Source of the DNA: a virus
DNA length: 25,462 nt
Virus record (IMG/VR): IMGVR_UViG_3300021517_000020
Location: 1 to 25,462 of that record
Reading direction: 5' to 3' (one strand)
Positions within the stretch are counted from its first letter, which is position 1; the number at the start of each line of letters is the position of its first letter. This document shows positions 4,052-22,106 of the stretch, piece by piece. The notes under the pieces are model-generated. The model was not told the DNA's origin. It worked only from the letters and a program-made list of their open reading frames with translations, and did not search any database. The position numbers and the translations under genes were made by a program.

Positions 4052-4285
4052 ATGAAGAACTCCACAAATTTGCTTGTTGTGCTTGCAATCTGCGCCTTGA
4101 TCGCCGGCGTTTCTACTGTGAGTCAGGCCACGCTTGGTGTGTTCCTTGCTGCCACCGCCGTCTTGCTTGGCGTGTTTGCGCGCATGGCTCAAGCCGAAGC
4201 GCATCACAGGGAGGCTATGGGCGAGCCGCGAAAGCCCGATGCAACCCCTCGATTCAGTGAGGAGAGACCGGACGATCCTTGTTAG
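4052..4285 (+). CDS. Possible small two-helix membrane protein
   Basis: This is a 77-residue plus-strand reading frame beginning MKNSTNLLVVLAICALIAG. Two hydrophobic segments (about residues 7-24 and 28-44) are separated by a short polar turn and followed by a hydrophilic tail ending SEERPDDPC. This is a helical hairpin topology typical of small phage membrane proteins (holin-like or exclusion proteins). There is no clear Shine-Dalgarno before ATG 4052. The 3' end overlaps the convergent ribbon-helix-helix gene by 32 bases. It lies at the tape-measure edge of cassette 1, so it may belong to that accessory locus. It could be a chance frame; the coherent hydrophobic pattern is the main support. 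Confidence 0.45.
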   Translation: MKNSTNLLVVLAICALIAGVSTVSQATLGVFLAATAVLLGVFARMAQAEAHHREAMGEPRKPDATPRFSEERPDDPC

Positions 4286-4454
4286 ACAAATCGTCCAAAG
4301 CAAGGGCGCGCAGATAAGCAGCCGTGGATAGACCCTTGCGTTTTGCGCGCTGAGTGACGCGCGCTTTCTCTTCGTCCGTGAAATACACGTGGACGACTGC
4401 GTCTCTGCTATTGCTCTCGCTAAGGGTCTTGGCTTGCTTATCAGCCTTGCGCAT
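4254..4454 (-). CDS. Ribbon-helix-helix (MobC/CopG-like) small DNA-binding protein
   Basis: The product has 66 residues. The core VVHVYFTDEEKARVTQRAKRK followed by GLSTAAYLRALAL is the strand-helix-helix pattern of ribbon-helix-helix proteins, closest in style to MobC-like and Arc/CopG regulators: a short basic/hydrophobic strand, a turn, then 'G-[LM]-S-x-x-x-Y-[LI]-R'. It is divergent from the cassette 1 operon, across an intergenic region with face-to-face promoters and inverted repeats, so an autorepressor/operon-repressor role is likely. Its own -10 box ends about 6 bases before the ATG, so its mRNA is probably leaderless. It is not obviously homologous to the two smaller regulators of cassettes 2 and 3, although it holds the same position. 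Confidence 0.7.
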   Translation of the reverse strand: MRKADKQAKTLSESNSRDAVVHVYFTDEEKARVTQRAKRKGLSTAAYLRALALDDLSNKDRPVSPH

Positions 4455-4460
4455 ACAGGC

Positions 4461-4531
4461 AGACTACCACTATCCAGGCAGATAGTCAATATCGAATAAG
4501 TATTGACACAATACCAAAATAGTATTAAACT
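4461..4531. promoter_or_regulatory. Divergent promoter/operator region of cassette 1
   Basis: Plus strand: TTGACA (4503-4508), a 17-base spacer and TAAACT (4526-4531). Minus strand: TTGACT (complement of 4484-4489), a 17-base spacer and TAGTCT (complement of 4461-4466). The two -35 boxes form an inverted repeat, GTCAATA (4485-4491) and TATTGAC (4501-4507). A second inverted repeat, AATAC (4510-4514) and GTATT (4522-4526), lies in the plus-strand spacer. This fits a shared operator for the divergent ribbon-helix-helix protein. Promoter calls are by consensus only. Confidence 0.6.
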
Positions 4532-4551
4532 CGCTCTCGTAAATAGGTCGA

Positions 4552-4621
4552 GCCGTGAAAGTGTCACTACCACCTTCACGGCCCTAACCATTCCGACTTC
4601 CAGCTTTAAGGAGAAAGTCTC
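4552..4621 (+). promoter_or_regulatory. Cassette 1 structured 5' leader and Shine-Dalgarno
   Basis: A stem of 12 pairs, 4552-4563 with 4571-4582, has one A-C mismatch and a 7-base loop. It is followed directly by CCCTAACCA and, further on, TTTAAGGAG before ATG 4622. The hairpin-CCCTAACCA-AAGGAG order recurs upstream of the family members in cassettes 2 and 3, although the stem sequence here differs completely. It may act in translation control, RNA stability or protein binding. Confidence 0.6.
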
Positions 4622-4993
4622 ATGGCTACGAGCAAGTTTAACCCCAACCTTCGCAAGGCCGAGCGCCAGGCCATCGGCCAGTTCGAGTATGTGCCGCCCC
4701 GCGCAGCATGGCTCGATTCCCTCGATCAGAACCCCGTTGTCAGCCCCAACTTCGCCGACACAGTCAAGATGCGCGCCGACTGGTTTGTGTGGGAGTGGAT
4801 GAAGGAGAACGCGCCGCCAGAAATCTTGGAACTGCACCGCGCCGCCGATGGCCTGGGCGTGTATTTCATGGAGTTTCAGGCCAGCAAGGGATTTGTCAGC
4901 GAAGACTCGAACACCAGCGTCATTGATCACATCACGCGCGCCGTCAACGCGCTTGACAAGATCGGCGACGACTGGACGAACACGACGCCGTAG
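4622..4993 (+). CDS. Cassette protein, type A copy 1 (unknown function)
   Basis: This is a 123-residue acidic cytosolic-looking protein with no signal peptide or membrane helix; I do not recognise the family. It shares with the cassette 2 copy the N-terminus MATSKFNPNLRKAER, the middle WLDSLDQNPVVSPNF (WVKSLDQNPVISPNF in copy 2), ADWFVWEW and the C-terminus GDDWTNTTP. The first 44 coding bases are identical to those of the cassette 2 copy. Across all four copies the conserved points are W-[LV]-x-[ST/A]-L-x-[EQ]-x-P-x-[IVL]-S-P-x-F, an aromatic/Trp-rich helix, [AN]AP-x-E-[IL], and a C-terminal helix with 'A-x-N-x-L-D-K-[IL]-G'. It has its own promoter, structured leader and strong AAGGAG ribosome site, and is first in a three-gene operon. 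The pattern suggests a small all-alpha effector, perhaps a takeover, exclusion or anti-defence protein; this is inference. Confidence 0.85.
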   Translation: MATSKFNPNLRKAERQAIGQFEYVPPRAAWLDSLDQNPVVSPNFADTVKMRADWFVWEWMKENAPPEILELHRAADGLGVYFMEFQASKGFVSEDSNTSVIDHITRAVNALDKIGDDWTNTTP

Positions 4994-5005
4994 GGGGGGG
5001 ACGAC

Positions 5006-5368
5006 ATGGCTAAAAAGCAAACCAAGGCTGTCGCGGCCCTTGAGGTTATTGGGCTCACCTTCCCCGGCTCGAACTCGAAGGCGTGGCTCGACGCGCTTGT
5101 TGAGCAACCGACCATCAGCCCGCAGTTCGTTGATGGCCTTTGCGGCAAGCTCGACCAAACCTTGTTTGAGTGGCTTCGCCAGCACGCTCCGCATGAGATC
5201 GTCGAGATGCATCAGTGCCGCAGTGCTATGACGGTATTCCTTAGCGAAGCCGCAACTAGTCACGGATTGGTTCACGCCAATTCGAACGAGACGATCATGG
5301 ATTACGTACGGGACGCCATCAACGTCCTGGATAAGATCGGCGCAGGCGACTTCGACATGGAAGGTTAG
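5006..5368 (+). CDS. Cassette protein, type B copy 1 (unknown function)
   Basis: This 120-residue protein is homologous to the gene 12 bases upstream but clearly diverged. WLDALVEQPTISPQF aligns with WLDSLDQNPVVSPNF, and the C-terminus DAINVLDKIGAGDFDMEG matches the cassette 3 protein rather than its neighbour. It contains HQCRSAM (HHCRSSM in cassette 3), a type-B signature. The N-terminus MAKKQTKAVAALEVIG is its own. An unusual run of eight G (4993-5000) overlapping the upstream TAG stop supplies its ribosome site. The tandem of types A and B in one operon suggests duplication followed by divergence, possibly to form a heteromer. Function unknown. Confidence 0.85.
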   Translation: MAKKQTKAVAALEVIGLTFPGSNSKAWLDALVEQPTISPQFVDGLCGKLDQTLFEWLRQHAPHEIVEMHQCRSAMTVFLSEAATSHGLVHANSNETIMDYVRDAINVLDKIGAGDFDMEG

Positions 5369-5377
5369 GAGGGGGAC

Positions 5378-5953
5378 ATGTATACCGCAGGCGTTCAAGT
5401 GAAAGGCGTTGCACCTTTGATGCAACATCGTTACCCGCTGCCCGACTTTGCGACGATTCAGAAGGGCAGCAAGAAGTCCACCGGCGCGAAGGATTACACC
5501 AGCGAGTGGAAGGACTATCTCTACACCAATGGCAGCGGTATCTACCAGCCAGCGATCCACTTTGAGGCGTGCATGCTCAAGGCGGCAACCAGCTTCAAGA
5601 TCGCGGGCAAGAAGGGCAAGAGTTACAAGGACTTGTTTAGCGGCTTTGTGCGCGTGACGCCCGATCACATTGCGCACGGCGTGCCTACGCCGGATGAACT
5701 GGACTTTGACGCCGACAAGTCGCTGTATCTGGATTTGCGGCCGGTTGTGGTTCAGCGCGCCCGCGTAGCCCGCATCCGACCGGTGTTCAAAGAAGGATGG
5801 ACGCTTGACTTTGACATCACCGTTGACGATGACGAACTGCATTGGCAAGTGCTCAAGGATGTGCTGGAGATGGCCGGCCGAACCATCGGCATCGGCGACT
5901 TTCGCCCCCGCTTTGGTCGCTTTACCGTGACCAAGTTTGAGGTTCACCAGTAA
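5378..5953 (+). CDS. Phage/accessory protein with possible RAMP-like C-terminal motif
   Basis: The protein has 191 residues, with GGAGGGGG directly before ATG 5378 and only 9 bases after the type B gene. It opens with a beta-strand and APLMQHRYP (YTAGVQVKGVAPLMQHRYP). It then has WKDYLYTNGSGIYQPAIHFEACMLKAA, a lysine-rich FKIAGKKGKSYKDL, and VVVQRARVARIRP, and it ends with a glycine-rich GRTIGIGDFRPRFGRF followed by a strand. The alternating strands, a helix after 'IYQP-x-x-H', and the terminal G-x-G-D-x-R-P-x-F-G-R-F loop resemble RAMP-fold (Cas5/Cas7-like) proteins. I have seen this general type as uncharacterised phage proteins, but the RAMP assignment is a guess from pattern. The basic character fits nucleic-acid binding. 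It is the last gene of the cassette 1 operon before a repeat region. Confidence 0.8.
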   Translation: MYTAGVQVKGVAPLMQHRYPLPDFATIQKGSKKSTGAKDYTSEWKDYLYTNGSGIYQPAIHFEACMLKAATSFKIAGKKGKSYKDLFSGFVRVTPDHIAHGVPTPDELDFDADKSLYLDLRPVVVQRARVARIRPVFKEGWTLDFDITVDDDELHWQVLKDVLEMAGRTIGIGDFRPRFGRFTVTKFEVHQ

Positions 5954-6125
5954 CTTTGTGGCTCCGGCGTGGAGTGGCAAGGCGGGCTGTGGCATGGCAC
6001 GGTGTGGCACGATGCGGAAGGTCGAGGTGAGGCGCTGCTTTGTGGTTCCGGTCTGGCATGGCAAGGCAAGGCGATGCAAGGTCTGGTCAGGCACGGCGCG
6101 GCTTGGTGTGATATGGCATGGCACG
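5954..6125 (+). repeat. Degenerate GGCA-rich repeat tract, two ~84-base units
   Basis: The stretch between the RAMP-like gene and the first HNH gene is built from short variants of GGCATGGCA, GGCAAGGC and GGCACGG. CTTTGTGG[CT]TCCGG occurs at 5954 and again at 6038, so two imperfect units of about 84 bases lie in tandem. The G-over-C skew on the plus strand is strong. No convincing coding frame uses it. It may be a recombination or slippage scar at the HNH insertion border, or a transcribed spacer. Confidence 0.6.
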
Positions 6126-6129
6126 GTTA

Positions 6130-6196
6130 ACCAATCAGCAAAGGAGACGACACCGTCACGGCAAGAGGCTGTGACGGTGTCGTCTTCCCGTTCGTC
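6130..6196 (+). promoter_or_regulatory. Leader relic plus perfect hairpin before HNH gene (possible bridged ribosome site)
   Basis: AAGGAG (6141-6146) is followed immediately by a perfect 14-base-pair stem (6146-6159 with 6171-6184, 11-base loop). Then 12 bases with no Shine-Dalgarno precede ATG 6197. Folding would place AAGGAG about 12 bases from the ATG. TAACCAA upstream of the AAGGAG resembles the conserved leader of cassettes 2 and 3. There is no T-tract after the stem, so a rho-independent terminator is less likely. Confidence 0.55.
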
Positions 6197-6484
6197 ATGG
6201 CGAACTACTTCACGGTTCCTGATTTGCACAAGCGATTCCCCTGGTATGGCCGGATGCGCCTCGAACAGTGGCGCGTCCTTCGCCAGTGGGTCTACGAGCG
6301 CGACGGCGGCCTGTGCCAATACTGTGGTCGGCGTGTCGAACTTCACAAATGCCATTGCCATCACGTCTTGCCGTTGAGCGAGAACGGGAGCAACCATCCG
6401 ACGAACCTCAAAACTCTGTGCGTTGACTGCCACAAAAAGCGACACCCTCATATGCGCGACATCCACGACCGGCTAACGACCTGA
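6197..6484 (+). CDS. HNH endonuclease (small, McrA-like)
   Basis: The product has 95 residues. A CQYCG pair, the HCHHVLPLSENGSNHPTNLKTLC core (H-H of the first strand and the N-L turn) and CVDCHKKRH give the complete beta-beta-alpha metal HNH fold, with four zinc-binding cysteines (CxxC...CxxC). The N-terminal LRQWVYERDGGLCQYC is the usual approach helix. Such small HNH proteins in phages are homing-type nucleases or packaging-associated nicking enzymes. The large terminase is 10 kb away and this gene sits in an accessory cassette, so a homing or free-standing role is more likely. The gene is convergent with the tail chaperone extension and overlaps its 3' end by 12 bases. Confidence 0.9.
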   Translation: MANYFTVPDLHKRFPWYGRMRLEQWRVLRQWVYERDGGLCQYCGRRVELHKCHCHHVLPLSENGSNHPTNLKTLCVDCHKKRHPHMRDIHDRLTT

Positions 6485-9255: not shown

Positions 9256-9273
9256 GTGCTAGTCGAGAGTTGT

Positions 9274-9319
9274 GAGTTCTTAGTTTTGAGTTGGGTTTTC
9301 AACTCAAAACTAAGAACTC
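9274..9319. terminator. Perfect 20-bp A+T-rich hairpin after capsid gene
   Basis: A perfect inverted repeat (9274-9293 with 9300-9319, 6-base loop) fills the gap between the major capsid gene and the next gene. It is A+T-rich in a G+C-rich region. No T-tract follows on the minus strand, so it is more likely an mRNA-stabilising or processing hairpin, or an attenuator, than a full rho-independent terminator. It can form on both strands. Confidence 0.6.
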
Positions 9320-9334
9320 ATACCTAATAACTTC

Positions 9335-10882: not shown

Positions 10883-12376
10883 CTAGTTGCTGATGCGCGT
10901 GCCCCCGGACGCTTGCACCGCGCGTATCTGCAACAGACTCATCTTCTGTTGCAACGCCTGGCGCAGCGTCGGGTCGCGCTCGTCTTCGATCATTTTGGCG
11001 AGCACGGCCATCTCAGTGCCGGCATCTACGCCCGCACCTCCGGCTCCCAAGCCCACCTCCCGCAATACCGGCCCGGCGATCACCGGCCGCGCCTCAATCT
11101 TTGCGAGACGATCATCGAACGCGCCCAACCGGGCCGTTACCGCATCGAATCGCTTGTTGAGCGTGTCCTGTTCGCCTGCCGCTTTTGCGAGAGCTTGCTC
11201 CTGCGCCTGTGCGCTGCTCGCGTCGATCACTGCTTGGAATTTGGCGAAGACGGCGTCGGCCAGTTTCTCGATCACGTCCTCGCTTGCCGTCGCGCCAGTC
11301 ATGGCTGCATCCACCGCCGCCTGCGCCTGCGCATCAAGATTGCTCTCGACGGCTTCGAGCGCCGTTTTGGCTTCCTGCGCCGCGGCCGTCGCTGCTTCGA
11401 GTTGCGCCGTCGCTGTCGTCAGCCCCTTGCCGACGATGCGCGCGGCTTCTGCCAGGCGCTGGGCGACAAGTGGAGATTGCCCGGCCATGTTGCCGGCGAG
11501 TGAGCTGAGGAACTGCACCGCACTGGCGGCGTCGCTTACGACGTAGCCCGCAAGCGCCGCGTCCCACGCCGGGTCATCGGATTTGGTAAGCGGTTGAGTG
11601 ATGCTGGCCGGGATGATGAAGCCGCCACTGGCAGGCAGACCCGTAATGCCGGTGTAGTGCGTGCCTGTGGTTGTAGTGGCATATGTGATGCCCGCCGAAA
11701 CGCCGGCGGTCTTCTGGACCTCATTGGCCTCAGCGTTGTCGTCGCTCTTTTCGTCCGCGCTTTCGGCATTCGCCTCGCCACTGTTGTCTACGTTGTCTGC
11801 ACCGCCGTCGTCACTACCAGCCGCTTCCCCTTTGTCTACACTGTCTACATTGTCTGCATCGTCTTCCGTGTCTTCTTCACCCTCGGCAAACTTTCGCAAC
11901 TCCTCTACGCCGCCGGCCTTGACCATCGTGAACGTCGCGCCATGCATGCACGGGTTATCCACGAGGCTGATTTCGGACGGCTTGGCCTCATAGCGAACGA
12001 CACCGTTCTCCATTTTGCGCCAGCCGTAAGCACCGCCCACGCTGAAACCGGTGTAAACACCGGCTTCCACCTTCTTCCATTCGGCATCATCTACGATGTG
12101 CGTGCCGATAAATACATATTTGTCGGCATCGTTGAATTGCAAATCAATGACCTTGCCGGCTGCTACAGGCTGGTGCATAGCCCGCACGTTGCCGAGTGAC
12201 CTGCCACCACTGGCTTTCTGGATGGCCTGCGACCACGCTTCGAAATGTGGCTTGCTGGCCGCATAGTCCATCAACTCTTTAGCCTTGTCCGGCGCCTCTT
12301 CGGCAGCCGTGCCCCACACCTCGCGCTTAACAGCGTCCACTTTGGTGATCGGGATGAAGACATTCAGTTCGTCCAT
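10883..12376 (-). CDS. Capsid maturation protease fused to scaffold (XkdF-like)
   Basis: The protein has 497 residues. Residues 1-155 are a prohead protease of the XkdF-like type: ITKVDAVKREVWG, an AMHQPVAAGKVIDL segment (the conserved His), then VEAGVYTGFSVGGAYGW (the Ser region) and YEAKPSEISLVDNPCM, a signature close of this protease family. Residues about 165-215 are a highly acidic Asp/Glu/Asn linker with VDNVDSVDK-like repeats. The remainder (about 270-470) is Ala/Gln-rich coiled coil, the scaffold delta-domain. In the phage, protease and scaffold chaperone capsid assembly and are then degraded. It has a dedicated promoter and structured leader upstream, which is unusual for an internal head gene. 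Confidence 0.85.
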   Translation of the reverse strand: MDELNVFIPITKVDAVKREVWGTAAEEAPDKAKELMDYAASKPHFEAWSQAIQKASGGRSLGNVRAMHQPVAAGKVIDLQFNDADKYVFIGTHIVDDAEWKKVEAGVYTGFSVGGAYGWRKMENGVVRYEAKPSEISLVDNPCMHGATFTMVKAGGVEELRKFAEGEEDTEDDADNVDSVDKGEAAGSDDGGADNVDNSGEANAESADEKSDDNAEANEVQKTAGVSAGITYATTTTGTHYTGITGLPASGGFIIPASITQPLTKSDDPAWDAALAGYVVSDAASAVQFLSSLAGNMAGQSPLVAQRLAEAARIVGKGLTTATAQLEAATAAAQEAKTALEAVESNLDAQAQAAVDAAMTGATASEDVIEKLADAVFAKFQAVIDASSAQAQEQALAKAAGEQDTLNKRFDAVTARLGAFDDRLAKIEARPVIAGPVLREVGLGAGGAGVDAGTEMAVLAKMIEDERDPTLRQALQQKMSLLQIRAVQASGGTRISN

Positions 12377-13420: not shown

Positions 13421-13451
13421 TTGACAAAATGGCCCATGTGAGTAATATTAC
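13421..13451 (+). promoter_or_regulatory. Promoter of cassette 2 with palindromic -10 region
   Basis: TTGACA (13421-13426), a 16-base spacer and TAATAT (13443-13448). The perfect palindrome GTAATATTAC (13442-13451) covers the -10 and is a candidate operator. A GTG start lies exactly 7 bases after the -10 box, so the transcript is expected to be leaderless. Confidence 0.65.
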
Positions 13452-13455
13452 CCTC

Positions 13456-13620
13456 GTGGAATACAGAACGCTCAAGATTTGGACTAGGACATGGGAGATG
13501 CTCAGCAAGGTCAAGGCGCTACTTCTTGTGAGAGAAAGCAGAAGCGAAAGCCTTGTCGAGATCGTGCATCGCCTCGTTGAAGCCGAGTTGAAGCGGCTAG
13601 ACTCCGAAAAGAAGAAGTAA
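13456..13620 (+). CDS. Leaderless ribbon-helix-helix-like regulator, cassette 2
   Basis: This is a 54-residue product from GTG 13456. An upstream ATG at 13429 lies between the -35 and -10 boxes of its own promoter and cannot be the start. VEYRTLKIWTRTWEMLSKVKALL followed by SRSESLVEIVHRLVEAELKRL has the shape of a short ribbon-helix-helix or CopG-type DNA-binding dimer: strand, helix, turn with polar 'RSESL', then a second helix. The cassette 3 counterpart is about 60% identical by eye. It is followed by the structured leader and the type A gene on the same transcript, so an autorepressor of the cassette is likely. Confidence 0.75.
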   Translation: MEYRTLKIWTRTWEMLSKVKALLLVRESRSESLVEIVHRLVEAELKRLDSEKKK

Positions 13621-13630
13621 TCAGAGGAGC

Positions 13631-13691
13631 GGGCTGCACCAGCGCTGTAACGCTGATGTAGCCCTAACCAACCCACTAAGGAGATAGTGAG
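13631..13691 (+). promoter_or_regulatory. Cassette 2 structured leader and Shine-Dalgarno
   Basis: A 14-pair stem (13631-13644 with 13651-13664, 6-base loop) contains one G-T wobble and one C-A mismatch. It is followed by TAACCAACCCACTAAGGAGA and ATG 13692, 27 bases after the stem. The corresponding region of cassette 3 differs at about seven positions, of which one turns the G-T wobble into a G-C pair and another turns an A-T pair into G-T, so pairing is kept there; one other change opens a pair near the stem base. Selection on RNA structure is plausible. Confidence 0.7.
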
Positions 13692-14063
13692 ATGGCTACG
13701 AGCAAGTTTAACCCCAACCTTCGCAAGGCCGAGCGTGAAGCCATCGGCCAGTTCCCCTACGTGCCGCCGCGTGAGGAGTGGGTCAAGTCGCTTGACCAAA
13801 ACCCCGTCATCAGCCCGAACTTCGTGGACACACTGAAGATGCGTGCCGACTGGTTTGTGTGGGAGTGGATCAAAGAGAACGCACCCAAAGAAATCCAAGA
13901 CCTGCAACACTGTGCTGGCACGCTTGAGACCTATTGGCTTGAGTTTGAGGCCAGCAAGGGCTTCGTCAGTGCAGACTCTAATTCCAGCATCCTCAAGAGC
14001 ATCACCGAGTGCATCAACACGCTCGATAAACTCGGCGACGACTGGACGAACACGACGCCGTAG
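13692..14063 (+). CDS. Cassette protein, type A copy 2 (unknown function)
   Basis: This 123-residue protein is the closest relative of the first cassette 1 gene, with the same length. The two share the first 44 bases and about the last 30 bases exactly, but differ much more in the middle (for example DLQHCAGTLETYWLEFEASKGFV here against ELHRAADGLGVYFMEFQASKGFV). This distribution suggests gene conversion or selection at the ends. The ribosome site is TAAGGAGATAGTGAG. No terminator or HNH gene follows; 65 bases later the convergent portal gene ends. Function not known. Confidence 0.85.
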   Translation: MATSKFNPNLRKAEREAIGQFPYVPPREEWVKSLDQNPVISPNFVDTLKMRADWFVWEWIKENAPKEIQDLQHCAGTLETYWLEFEASKGFVSADSNSSILKSITECINTLDKLGDDWTNTTP

Positions 14064-21019: not shown

Positions 21020-21053
21020 TTGACAATTGCACGCAGTTGCTTACAATCGTGCA
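21020..21053 (+). promoter_or_regulatory. Promoter/operator of cassette 3
   Basis: TTGACA (21020-21025), a 16-base spacer and TACAAT (21042-21047). An inverted repeat TGCACG (21028-21033) and CGTGCA (21048-21053) brackets the -10 box and ends just before the GTG start at 21055, a likely operator. The -10 to GTG distance is 7 bases, identical to cassette 2. Confidence 0.7.
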
Positions 21054-21054
21054 T

Positions 21055-21213
21055 GTGGAATACCAGAACGTGAGAATCTGGCGGACAACCTGGGATGCTC
21101 TTAGCAAGGTCAGAGCGTTATTACTCACCAAAGAGAACAAGCGTGAGACCTTAATGGAGATCGTCAACCGACTTGTCTTGGCTGAACTCGCAAGGCTGGA
21201 GTCCAAAAAGTAA
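21055..21213 (+). CDS. Leaderless ribbon-helix-helix-like regulator, cassette 3
   Basis: This 52-residue product from GTG 21055 starts VEYQNVRIWRTTWDALSKVRALL and continues NKRETLMEIVNRLVLAELARL. It aligns without gaps to the cassette 2 regulator over 50 residues (about 60% identity by eye). The only nearby ATG (21053) is out of frame. The gene is too short to be picked up by most annotation. Promoter spacing predicts a leaderless transcript that also carries the downstream stem-loop and the cassette protein gene. A repressor of its own promoter is the simplest role. Confidence 0.75.
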   Translation: MEYQNVRIWRTTWDALSKVRALLLTKENKRETLMEIVNRLVLAELARLESKK

Positions 21214-21223
21214 CTAGAGGAGC

Positions 21224-21284
21224 GGACTGCACCGGCGCGGGAACGCTGATGCAGCCCTAACCAACCCACTAAGGAGATAGTGAG
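21224..21284 (+). promoter_or_regulatory. Cassette 3 structured leader and Shine-Dalgarno
   Basis: A 14-pair stem (21224-21237 with 21244-21257, 6-base loop) has two mismatches, one of them the same internal C-A mismatch as in cassette 2. TAACCAACCCACTAAGGAGATAGTGAG, from the stem to ATG 21285, is the same as in cassette 2 across its full 27 bases. Confidence 0.7.
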
Positions 21285-21656
21285 ATGGCTACTAACAAGT
21301 CTAACCCAACCACGACCGTTCAGAAGGCAGTGCCAGAGTATCGCCGTGTCAGCGAAAGTAGGCATGAAGCTTGGCTCAAGACGCTCACCGAACAACCCGT
21401 CCTTAGTCCGCATTTCGTCATCGTCCTGCACGATCACATCTCGCAGGCGATCCTCGACTGGCTCATCGCCAATGCACCCTCGGAGCTTGTCACGCTGCAT
21501 CACTGTCGCAGCAGCATGCAGACCTACTACGAAGAGTTTGAGGCCAGCAATGGCTTCGTCAGTGAACTCACTAACATGGGTTTCATGGACACCGTGCGAG
21601 ACGCAATCAACACGCTCGACAAGATCGGCGCCGGCGACTTCGAGACGATGGGTTAG
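21285..21656 (+). CDS. Cassette protein, mosaic A/B copy (unknown function)
   Basis: This 123-residue protein has a type A-like start (MATNKSNP) and type A leader. Its core and C-terminus follow type B: WLKTLTEQPVLSPHF, LVTLHHCRSSM, TVRDAINTLDKIGAGDFETMG. FEASNGFVS within it is a type A feature again (FEASKGFVS). It therefore looks recombinant between the two branches. Acidic, soluble, no signal peptide. It is followed after 6 bases by an HNH gene on the same strand. Function unknown. Confidence 0.85.
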   Translation: MATNKSNPTTTVQKAVPEYRRVSESRHEAWLKTLTEQPVLSPHFVIVLHDHISQAILDWLIANAPSELVTLHHCRSSMQTYYEEFEASNGFVSELTNMGFMDTVRDAINTLDKIGAGDFETMG

Positions 21657-21662
21657 TTTGTC

Positions 21663-22106
21663 ATGACAGACGCCAATAAGCCTAGAGATAACTATTTGCG
21701 CGACTATTACCAAAGGAATCGCGAGAGACTTTTGGAGCGTCAGCGTATAAGGTATCACGCCAATCGAGACAAGGAACGAGCCTATCGCGTGCGCCGAAGT
21801 CGGCAATACAAAGCCGAAGTTATTCAAGCATACGGCGGTGCGTGTGCTTGCTGCGGCGAAACGCAAATAGAGTTCCTTTCGATTGACCATATCAATGGCA
21901 AAGGGAAGCAGCACCGTAAAAACGCGAGTGGCGTCGGTCATCAGTTTTTTGCATGGCTAAAACGACAAGGCTATCCAAAAGAAGGACTGCGCGTTTTGTG
22001 CCACAACTGCAACCAAGCTATCGGTCTATACGGTTACTGCCCCCATCAATCAGACATTGACTTCCTCAATCCGCCTTTTTGGGTTGAAGCCACTAAGCCA
22101 GAGTAA
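21663..22106 (+). CDS. HNH homing-type endonuclease
   Basis: The protein has 147 residues. The first ~65 residues are a basic Arg/Tyr/Asn-rich helix (NYLRDYYQRNRERLLERQRIRYHANRDKERAYR), a typical DNA-gripping arm. The catalytic region follows: CACCGETQIEFLSIDHINGKGKQHR, GYPKEGLRVLCHNCNQAIGLYGYCPH. These give CxxC, D-H-I-N-G, the N-x-x-x-G-L-Y-G-Y-C-P-H end and the second CxxC of a family frequent in phage and organellar HNH nucleases. It is unrelated in sequence to the HNH gene of cassette 1. G+C is visibly lower than in the structural genes, which suggests recent arrival. The 3' end overlaps the convergent tail gene by 14 bases. Confidence 0.88.
   Translation: MTDANKPRDNYLRDYYQRNRERLLERQRIRYHANRDKERAYRVRRSRQYKAEVIQAYGGACACCGETQIEFLSIDHINGKGKQHRKNASGVGHQFFAWLKRQGYPKEGLRVLCHNCNQAIGLYGYCPHQSDIDFLNPPFWVEATKPE

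Follow-up and report, generated by a model that had tools for sequence, protein, structure and literature searches.

Organization of the Three Cassettes

The analyzed window, 25,462 nt in length, is the whole of the 25.5-kb IMG/VR phage record IMGVR_UViG_3300021517_000020, whose recognizable structural genes are encoded on the minus strand. Relatives of its terminase were found in 20 IMG/VR records (44–59% identity, plus one short match) and in two Chloroflexota MAGs, one of Anaerolinea and one of Ardenticatenia (52–55% identity). Therefore, the host of the phage probably belongs to the phylum Chloroflexota, with the nearest phage relatives residing in Anaerolineae and Ardenticatenia. To our knowledge, almost no laboratory work has been done on phages of Chloroflexota.

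Three plus-strand cassettes interrupt the minus-strand late genes: cassette 1 (approximately 4503–6484), cassette 2 (13421–14063), and cassette 3 (21020–22106). The genes flanking cassette 2 overlap directly in two related phages, L020 (8191/8198) and L022 (3171/3174); hence, cassette 2 is an insertion between genes that are adjacent in the relatives. Judged from the sequence, the cassettes are moron-like; this term is preferred to moron because a terminator of their own was not detected, with no terminator-like site found past the end of either cassette 2 or cassette 3.

Both strands of the whole window were scanned for strong sigma70-type promoters, with a threshold of at least 10 of the 12 consensus positions. 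Exactly three matches were obtained, each heading one cassette on the plus strand: TTGACA-17-TAAACT at 4503–4531 (cassette 1), TTGACA-16-TAATAT at 13421–13448 (cassette 2), and TTGACA-16-TACAAT at 21020–21047 (cassette 3). All three share the TTGACA -35 box and match 10–11 of the 12 positions, being predicted purely by consensus match. No sigma70-like promoter reaching at least 10/12 was found on the minus strand of the window, so a single transcript probably reads through the cassettes from the late genes on one side to those on the other. If the late genes indeed share one transcript, the minus strand would be transcribed through the cassettes.

Each cassette encodes a member of a family of 120–123-aa orphan proteins, and cassette 1 has an additional, fourth copy in tandem. 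The three 123-aa proteins are encoded on the plus strand at 4622–4993 (copy 1), 13692–14063 (copy 2), and 21285–21656 (copy 3), and the 120-aa fourth paralogue, also on the plus strand, at 5006–5368. In relation to copy 2, the identity amounts to 72% for copy 1 and to 39% and 32% for the remaining copies. Searches of Pfam, NCBIfam, and PADLOC gave no match to the family and PHROG only a non-significant one; the defense-system models likewise gave no hit to any orphan protein. The fold is predicted to be all-helical, and the structural search with the 123-aa protein gave no hit below an E value of 0.7.

Cassettes 2 and 3 carry a small plus-strand ORF ahead of the orphan gene, encoding a basic polypeptide of 54 aa in cassette 2 (13456–13620) and one of 52 aa in cassette 3 (21055–21213), 60% identical to each other. 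Both ORFs start with GTG placed exactly 7 nt past the -10 box; hence, the ORFs at 13456 and 21055 are probably translated from leaderless messages. By eye, the product looks like a ribbon-helix-helix (RHH) protein. No library gave a significant family match to it and none supported the RHH assignment; the monomer model is all-helical, lacks a structural match, and does not confirm RHH. A clear RHH match, of the NikA type, was obtained for the gene at 4254–4454, divergent to cassette 1. Cassette 3 also encodes an endonuclease VII/HNH-like protein (21663–22106, plus strand) and cassette 1 an HNH endonuclease (6197–6484, plus strand) preceded by its own strong hairpin. The latter, of approximately 17 bp (6139–6186), lies inside cassette 1 directly 5' of the HNH gene and its 5' base overlaps AAAGGAG, so that the Shine–Dalgarno sequence may be covered, as in T4 homing endonucleases. 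Degenerate repeats of the TGGCAYGG type occupy the segment 5963–6127 between a plus-strand gene and the HNH gene.

The cassettes are mosaic. Cassettes 1 and 2 are alike where the coding sequence begins, with 57 of its first 60 nt shared, and cassettes 2 and 3 are alike in the leader, which is 90% identical between them in comparison to approximately 70% and 67% for the genes on its two sides.

Architecture of the Orphan Gene Leaders

Ahead of the promoter-proximal orphan genes lie inverted repeats forming stem-loops, listed here without an assigned strand, at 4550–4584 (cassette 1), 13631–13664 (cassette 2), and 21224–21257 (cassette 3). The first-pass annotation described those of cassettes 2 and 3 as 14-pair stems with a shared internal C-A mismatch. 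The 14 positions and the common mismatch (at position 9) hold; the number of standard pairs read on the plus strand is only 13 in cassette 2, one of them being G-U, and 12 in cassette 3, in which two mismatches of the A-C type occur. On the minus strand, 13 of the 14 positions pair in cassette 3. The other constant features ascribed to these two leaders were all recovered: the loop of 6 nt, the distance of 27 nt between the stem and the ATG, and the linker with AAGGAG, identical at 27 of 27 positions.

The stem of cassette 1 was aligned to those of cassettes 2 and 3 by anchoring on the shared CCCTAACC. So anchored, it falls into register with them over the same 14 positions, has a loop longer by one base (7 nt), and pairs at 12/14 positions on the plus strand and 14/14 on the minus strand. 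The same placement had been claimed for cassette 1, and this is correct in relation to the motif CCCTAACCA, common to all three leaders, but not in relation to the ATG, which is separated by 39 nt from its 12-position stem. The window contains exactly three copies of the motif itself, one in each leader, on the plus strand at 4582–4590, 13662–13670, and 21255–21263. The stem of cassette 1 begins approximately 18 nt past the -10 box, hence near the predicted 5' end of the message, and those of cassettes 2 and 3 begin 10 nt past the stop codon of the small ORF.

To estimate chance pairing, the stem was anchored at CCC and the 60 nt upstream were shuffled 20,000 times, with only Watson–Crick pairs counted. 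The resulting P values were 5e-5 for cassette 1, 5e-5 for cassette 2, and 1e-3 for cassette 3; the values for the first two cassettes indicate that the hairpin is real and exceeds chance. No Rfam match was found anywhere in the window.

Only 12 nt precede the ATG of the fourth paralogue (5006–5368), and the leader element is absent there, which ties the element to the cassette heads and not to every family member; the suggestion that it controls each member of the family was consequently abandoned.

Between the first stem and the coding sequence, a second, shorter hairpin is present in cassette 2 (CACTA-AGGAGA-TAGTG, 13674–13689, plus strand) and in identical form in cassette 3 (21267–21282, plus strand), with the Shine–Dalgarno sequence in the loop. 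Five of its six bases have an unpaired probability of approximately 0.96–1.0. Covering of the ribosome-binding site (RBS) of the I-TevI type, with the Shine–Dalgarno sequence sequestered in a stem, was not seen in these two cassettes. In both, TAACCA, the 3' end of CCCTAACCA, is able to pair with TGGCTA across the start codon with one mismatch. The corresponding TAAGGAG of cassette 1 (4607–4613, plus strand) is partly paired in the predicted fold; its context folds unlike that of cassettes 2 and 3, and a comparable but different arrangement is possible there.

Pairing Is Retained While the Arms Differ

The arms are largely different in cassette 1, and CCCTAACCA is invariant across the three cassettes. 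Between cassettes 2 and 3, the stem-loop differs at 5 of 34 positions and the linker at 0 of 27 (Fisher P = 0.06). With the arms drifting while the motif and the linker stay fixed, it looks as if pairing, rather than the arm sequence, were under selection in the stem. The comparison of cassette 1 with cassettes 2 and 3 revealed five pairs changed on both sides when read on the plus strand and six on the minus strand, versus 0–1 and 0–2, respectively, in the controls with slid partners. All these compensatory differences fall between cassette 1 and cassettes 2/3, thus on one branch: the three leaders include two close relatives and amount to only two independent sequences, and the double changes may represent one divergence or two independent stems. 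In both cases, the arms have changed and the pairing has been retained.

The first-pass annotation had drawn its evidence from elsewhere, from the changes between cassettes 2 and 3 that preserve pairing. Two of the three stem changes between these cassettes keep the pair, 54% of transitions are expected to do so, and the probability of at least two in three is 0.56; these substitutions are thus uninformative. The idea of a selected, pairing-dependent cis-acting element in the leader survives on the cassette 1 versus cassettes 2/3 comparison and not on the changes it was originally based on.

The mosaic structure raises the question of whether the leaders have any regulatory function, since recent recombination between paralogous cassettes could account for their likeness and the stems could be by-products or remnants of old terminators. 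The sharing of the coding start by cassettes 1 and 2 and of the leader by cassettes 2 and 3 is in line with such exchange. However, the arms of cassettes 1 and 2 differ and yet pair at the same anchored place, each with P of about 5e-5, which conversion leaves unexplained, and we regard this origin as improbable.

Folding of the Two Strands

The leader of each cassette was folded on both strands. On the plus strand, the energies for cassettes 1, 2, and 3 were -35.3, -31.2, and -26.2 kcal/mol (z of -3.8, -3.2, and -2.5), whereas on the minus strand they were -54.7, -40.8, and -40.0 kcal/mol (z of -7.1, -5.2, and -6.4). The minus strand folds better in three of three leaders because the A-C mismatches of the plus strand become G-U pairs. 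This applies also to the internal C-A mismatch and to the opened basal pair, both of which are G-U on the minus strand, so that the action as a plus-strand leader RNA, proposed at first, does not follow from the fold. It also illustrates how an assumed coding strand can mislead the reading of a hairpin, the apparent mismatches being G-U pairs on the opposite strand. In a coarse-step scan across the window, equally low z values were reached by approximately 0.3–1.3% of minus-strand and 2–6% of plus-strand windows, a rough comparison as the window lengths differ.

These results bring forward the possibility that the minus strand is the functional one, with the late transcript carrying two back-to-back hairpins opposite the Shine–Dalgarno sequence and the start codon and acting as an antisense regulator or a processing site. 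Besides the z values, 96.7% of cells are paired on the minus strand versus 86.7% on the plus strand, six double-changed pairs were counted against five, and the read-through of the late transcript, probable in the absence of strong minus-strand promoters, would supply the RNA. On the other hand, the tally of A-C versus G-U on the plus strand (7:2, P = 0.18) is not significant, the changes between cassettes 2 and 3 lean slightly to the plus strand, and neither an antisense promoter nor a U-tract terminator was found on the minus strand near the leaders. Altogether, a functional minus strand seems somewhat unlikely, although it is the foremost competitor of the plus-strand reading. Its most specific form, in which the moron would be expressed from its own promoter and shut off when late transcription passes, due to the two-hairpin antisense element of the late transcript over the moron RBS, is to be considered unlikely.

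The non-significant tally also fits an inverted repeat acting as DNA, which is indifferent to G-U versus A-C. The repeat might then be an operator for the small upstream protein in cassettes 2 and 3 or for the divergent NikA-like RHH protein in cassette 1. The position of the small basic ORF directly upstream in the former and the clear NikA-type match in the latter fit this proposal. Nevertheless, nowhere in the leader is variation greater than in the arms, next to the fixed CCCTAACCA and linker, the opposite of what is anticipated for a sequence-specific site; the repeat of cassettes 2 and 3 lies approximately 180 nt downstream of the promoter; and the small ORF was recognized as RHH by no library, its model being without a match. 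A DNA operator is hence quite unlikely.

Several other foldbacks were noticed in the window. The segment 12411–12495, 5' of the minus-strand gene 10883–12376, gave the strongest minus-strand foldback in the fold scan (z of -10) and the second strongest on the plus strand (z of -7.5); its 15-nt arms, AACGCGGGCGCTGAA and TTCAGCGCCCGCGTT, enclose a further hairpin with a GAAA cap, and it has no Rfam match. A 26-nt AT-rich inverted repeat, 92% complementary, is located at 9268–9325 between two minus-strand genes and is probably a terminator. In cassette 1, the -10 region (4526–4538) is complementary to codons 3–6 of the orphan gene (4628–4640) over approximately 11 pairs, better on the minus strand; in the predicted minus-strand fold, this pairing closes a three-way junction, and it is absent from the folds of cassettes 2 and 3.

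Relatives of the Gene and Its Leader

No relatives of the leader were found in IMG/VR (by protein, alignment, and DNA pattern), GTDB contigs, phage and plasmid collections, or the 396 and 400 genomes around an Anaerolineae MAG. Several of these negative searches represent one method each, and the fragmentary state of virus records makes an empty result weigh little. The covariance model of the leaders gave nothing convincing in the related phages and two MAGs. Two DNA-pattern matches (L034 and L035) were dismissed as chance, lying inside an unrelated coding gene. An integron attC-like site was ruled out by inspection, as one GTTAGG-like core was present without a partner.

The same searches provided a single credible distant relative of the orphan protein, L028, in an Anaerolineae-class genome; the E value of 2e-7 refers to this one genome out of the 396 that were searched. 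It adjoins a probable tape-measure gene, as judged from the sequence. Upstream of it lies a small ORF of the DNA-binding type (a weak match to HTH_17 that stays under the curated cut-off), with hairpins in between: several strong ones occupy 1255–1497 of L028 before the orphan homologue, and the largest of them favors the plus strand (-50.8 vs. -37.2 kcal/mol).

The hairpin of the L028 homologue is followed by TTTTGCCGTTT, and in the cassettes a GC-rich stem stands just past the stop codon of the small ORF; both would suit an intrinsic terminator, or an attenuator, in the gap that separates the small ORF from the orphan gene. Against this, no terminator-like site was detected on either strand at the leaders of cassettes 2 and 3, and none at that of cassette 1, which makes this role very improbable.

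A Putative Two-Part Leader RNA and Its Known Counterparts

The reading that we favor, tentatively and with a probability of about 0.42, is a structured RNA leader in the orphan gene's own message, combining a stabilizing or separating stem with an initiation hairpin. The promoter-proximal orphan copies would carry a conserved two-part foldback leader, in cassettes opposing the direction of the late genes. The first part would be the 14-position stem, free in its arm sequence and ending at CCCTAACC; the second, the short hairpin with the Shine–Dalgarno sequence in the loop, able, through CCCTAACCA, to close across the start codon. Such a leader most likely acts as RNA within the messenger of the orphan gene itself. 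In cassettes 2 and 3, the stem could shield the downstream message from decay or separate it from the upstream sequence, and the second hairpin might set or modulate initiation. The choice of RNA over DNA and of the plus over the minus strand is inferred from these data, as is the stabilizing and initiation role.

Three known systems are worth comparing. The P22 moron pid (PMC3573128) is an orphan late-region gene opposing its neighbors, with an AAGGAG Shine–Dalgarno sequence and an empty site in related phages. The present cassettes likewise combine an orphan gene in the late region, opposed transcription, AAGGAG, and, for cassette 2, an empty site. In contrast to pid (PMC3573128), here three cassettes with one gene family reside in one genome, two of them have an extra small ORF, and a terminator was not found; furthermore, the passages on pid that were consulted mention no structured leader.

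In Aeromonas phage 25, a very stable hairpin is predicted 5' of the RBS of seg43(25) without covering it, and its effect was left undetermined there (PMC2988022). The similarity lies in the hairpin upstream of an uncovered RBS of an inserted phage gene, and HNH-type genes are found in the present cassettes as well. Unlike seg43(25) and the genes behind the T4 leader hairpins (PMC2988022), the gene behind the hairpin is an orphan and not a nuclease. The hairpins of T4 homing endonucleases work by covering the RBS (PMC2988022), which the large stem described here does not.

In plasmid pMV158, RNAII is encoded between copG and repB as a separate antisense transcript ending in a rho-independent terminator (PMC4485353). 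Cassettes 2 and 3 would have a similar order: first a small ORF that is possibly RHH-like, next a stem-loop in the intergenic region that folds on either strand, and last the controlled gene. It is this layout that the antisense reading of the late transcript would share with RNAII. In contrast to pMV158 (PMC4485353), neither an antisense promoter nor a U-tract was found here, and the orphan product is not a recognizable replication initiator.

If the antisense reading were true, the cassettes would harbor a compact switch coupling the silence of the moron to late gene expression. The three cassettes suggest that a portable leader, in which pairing is kept while the sequence drifts, can travel within gene cassettes inserted into phages.
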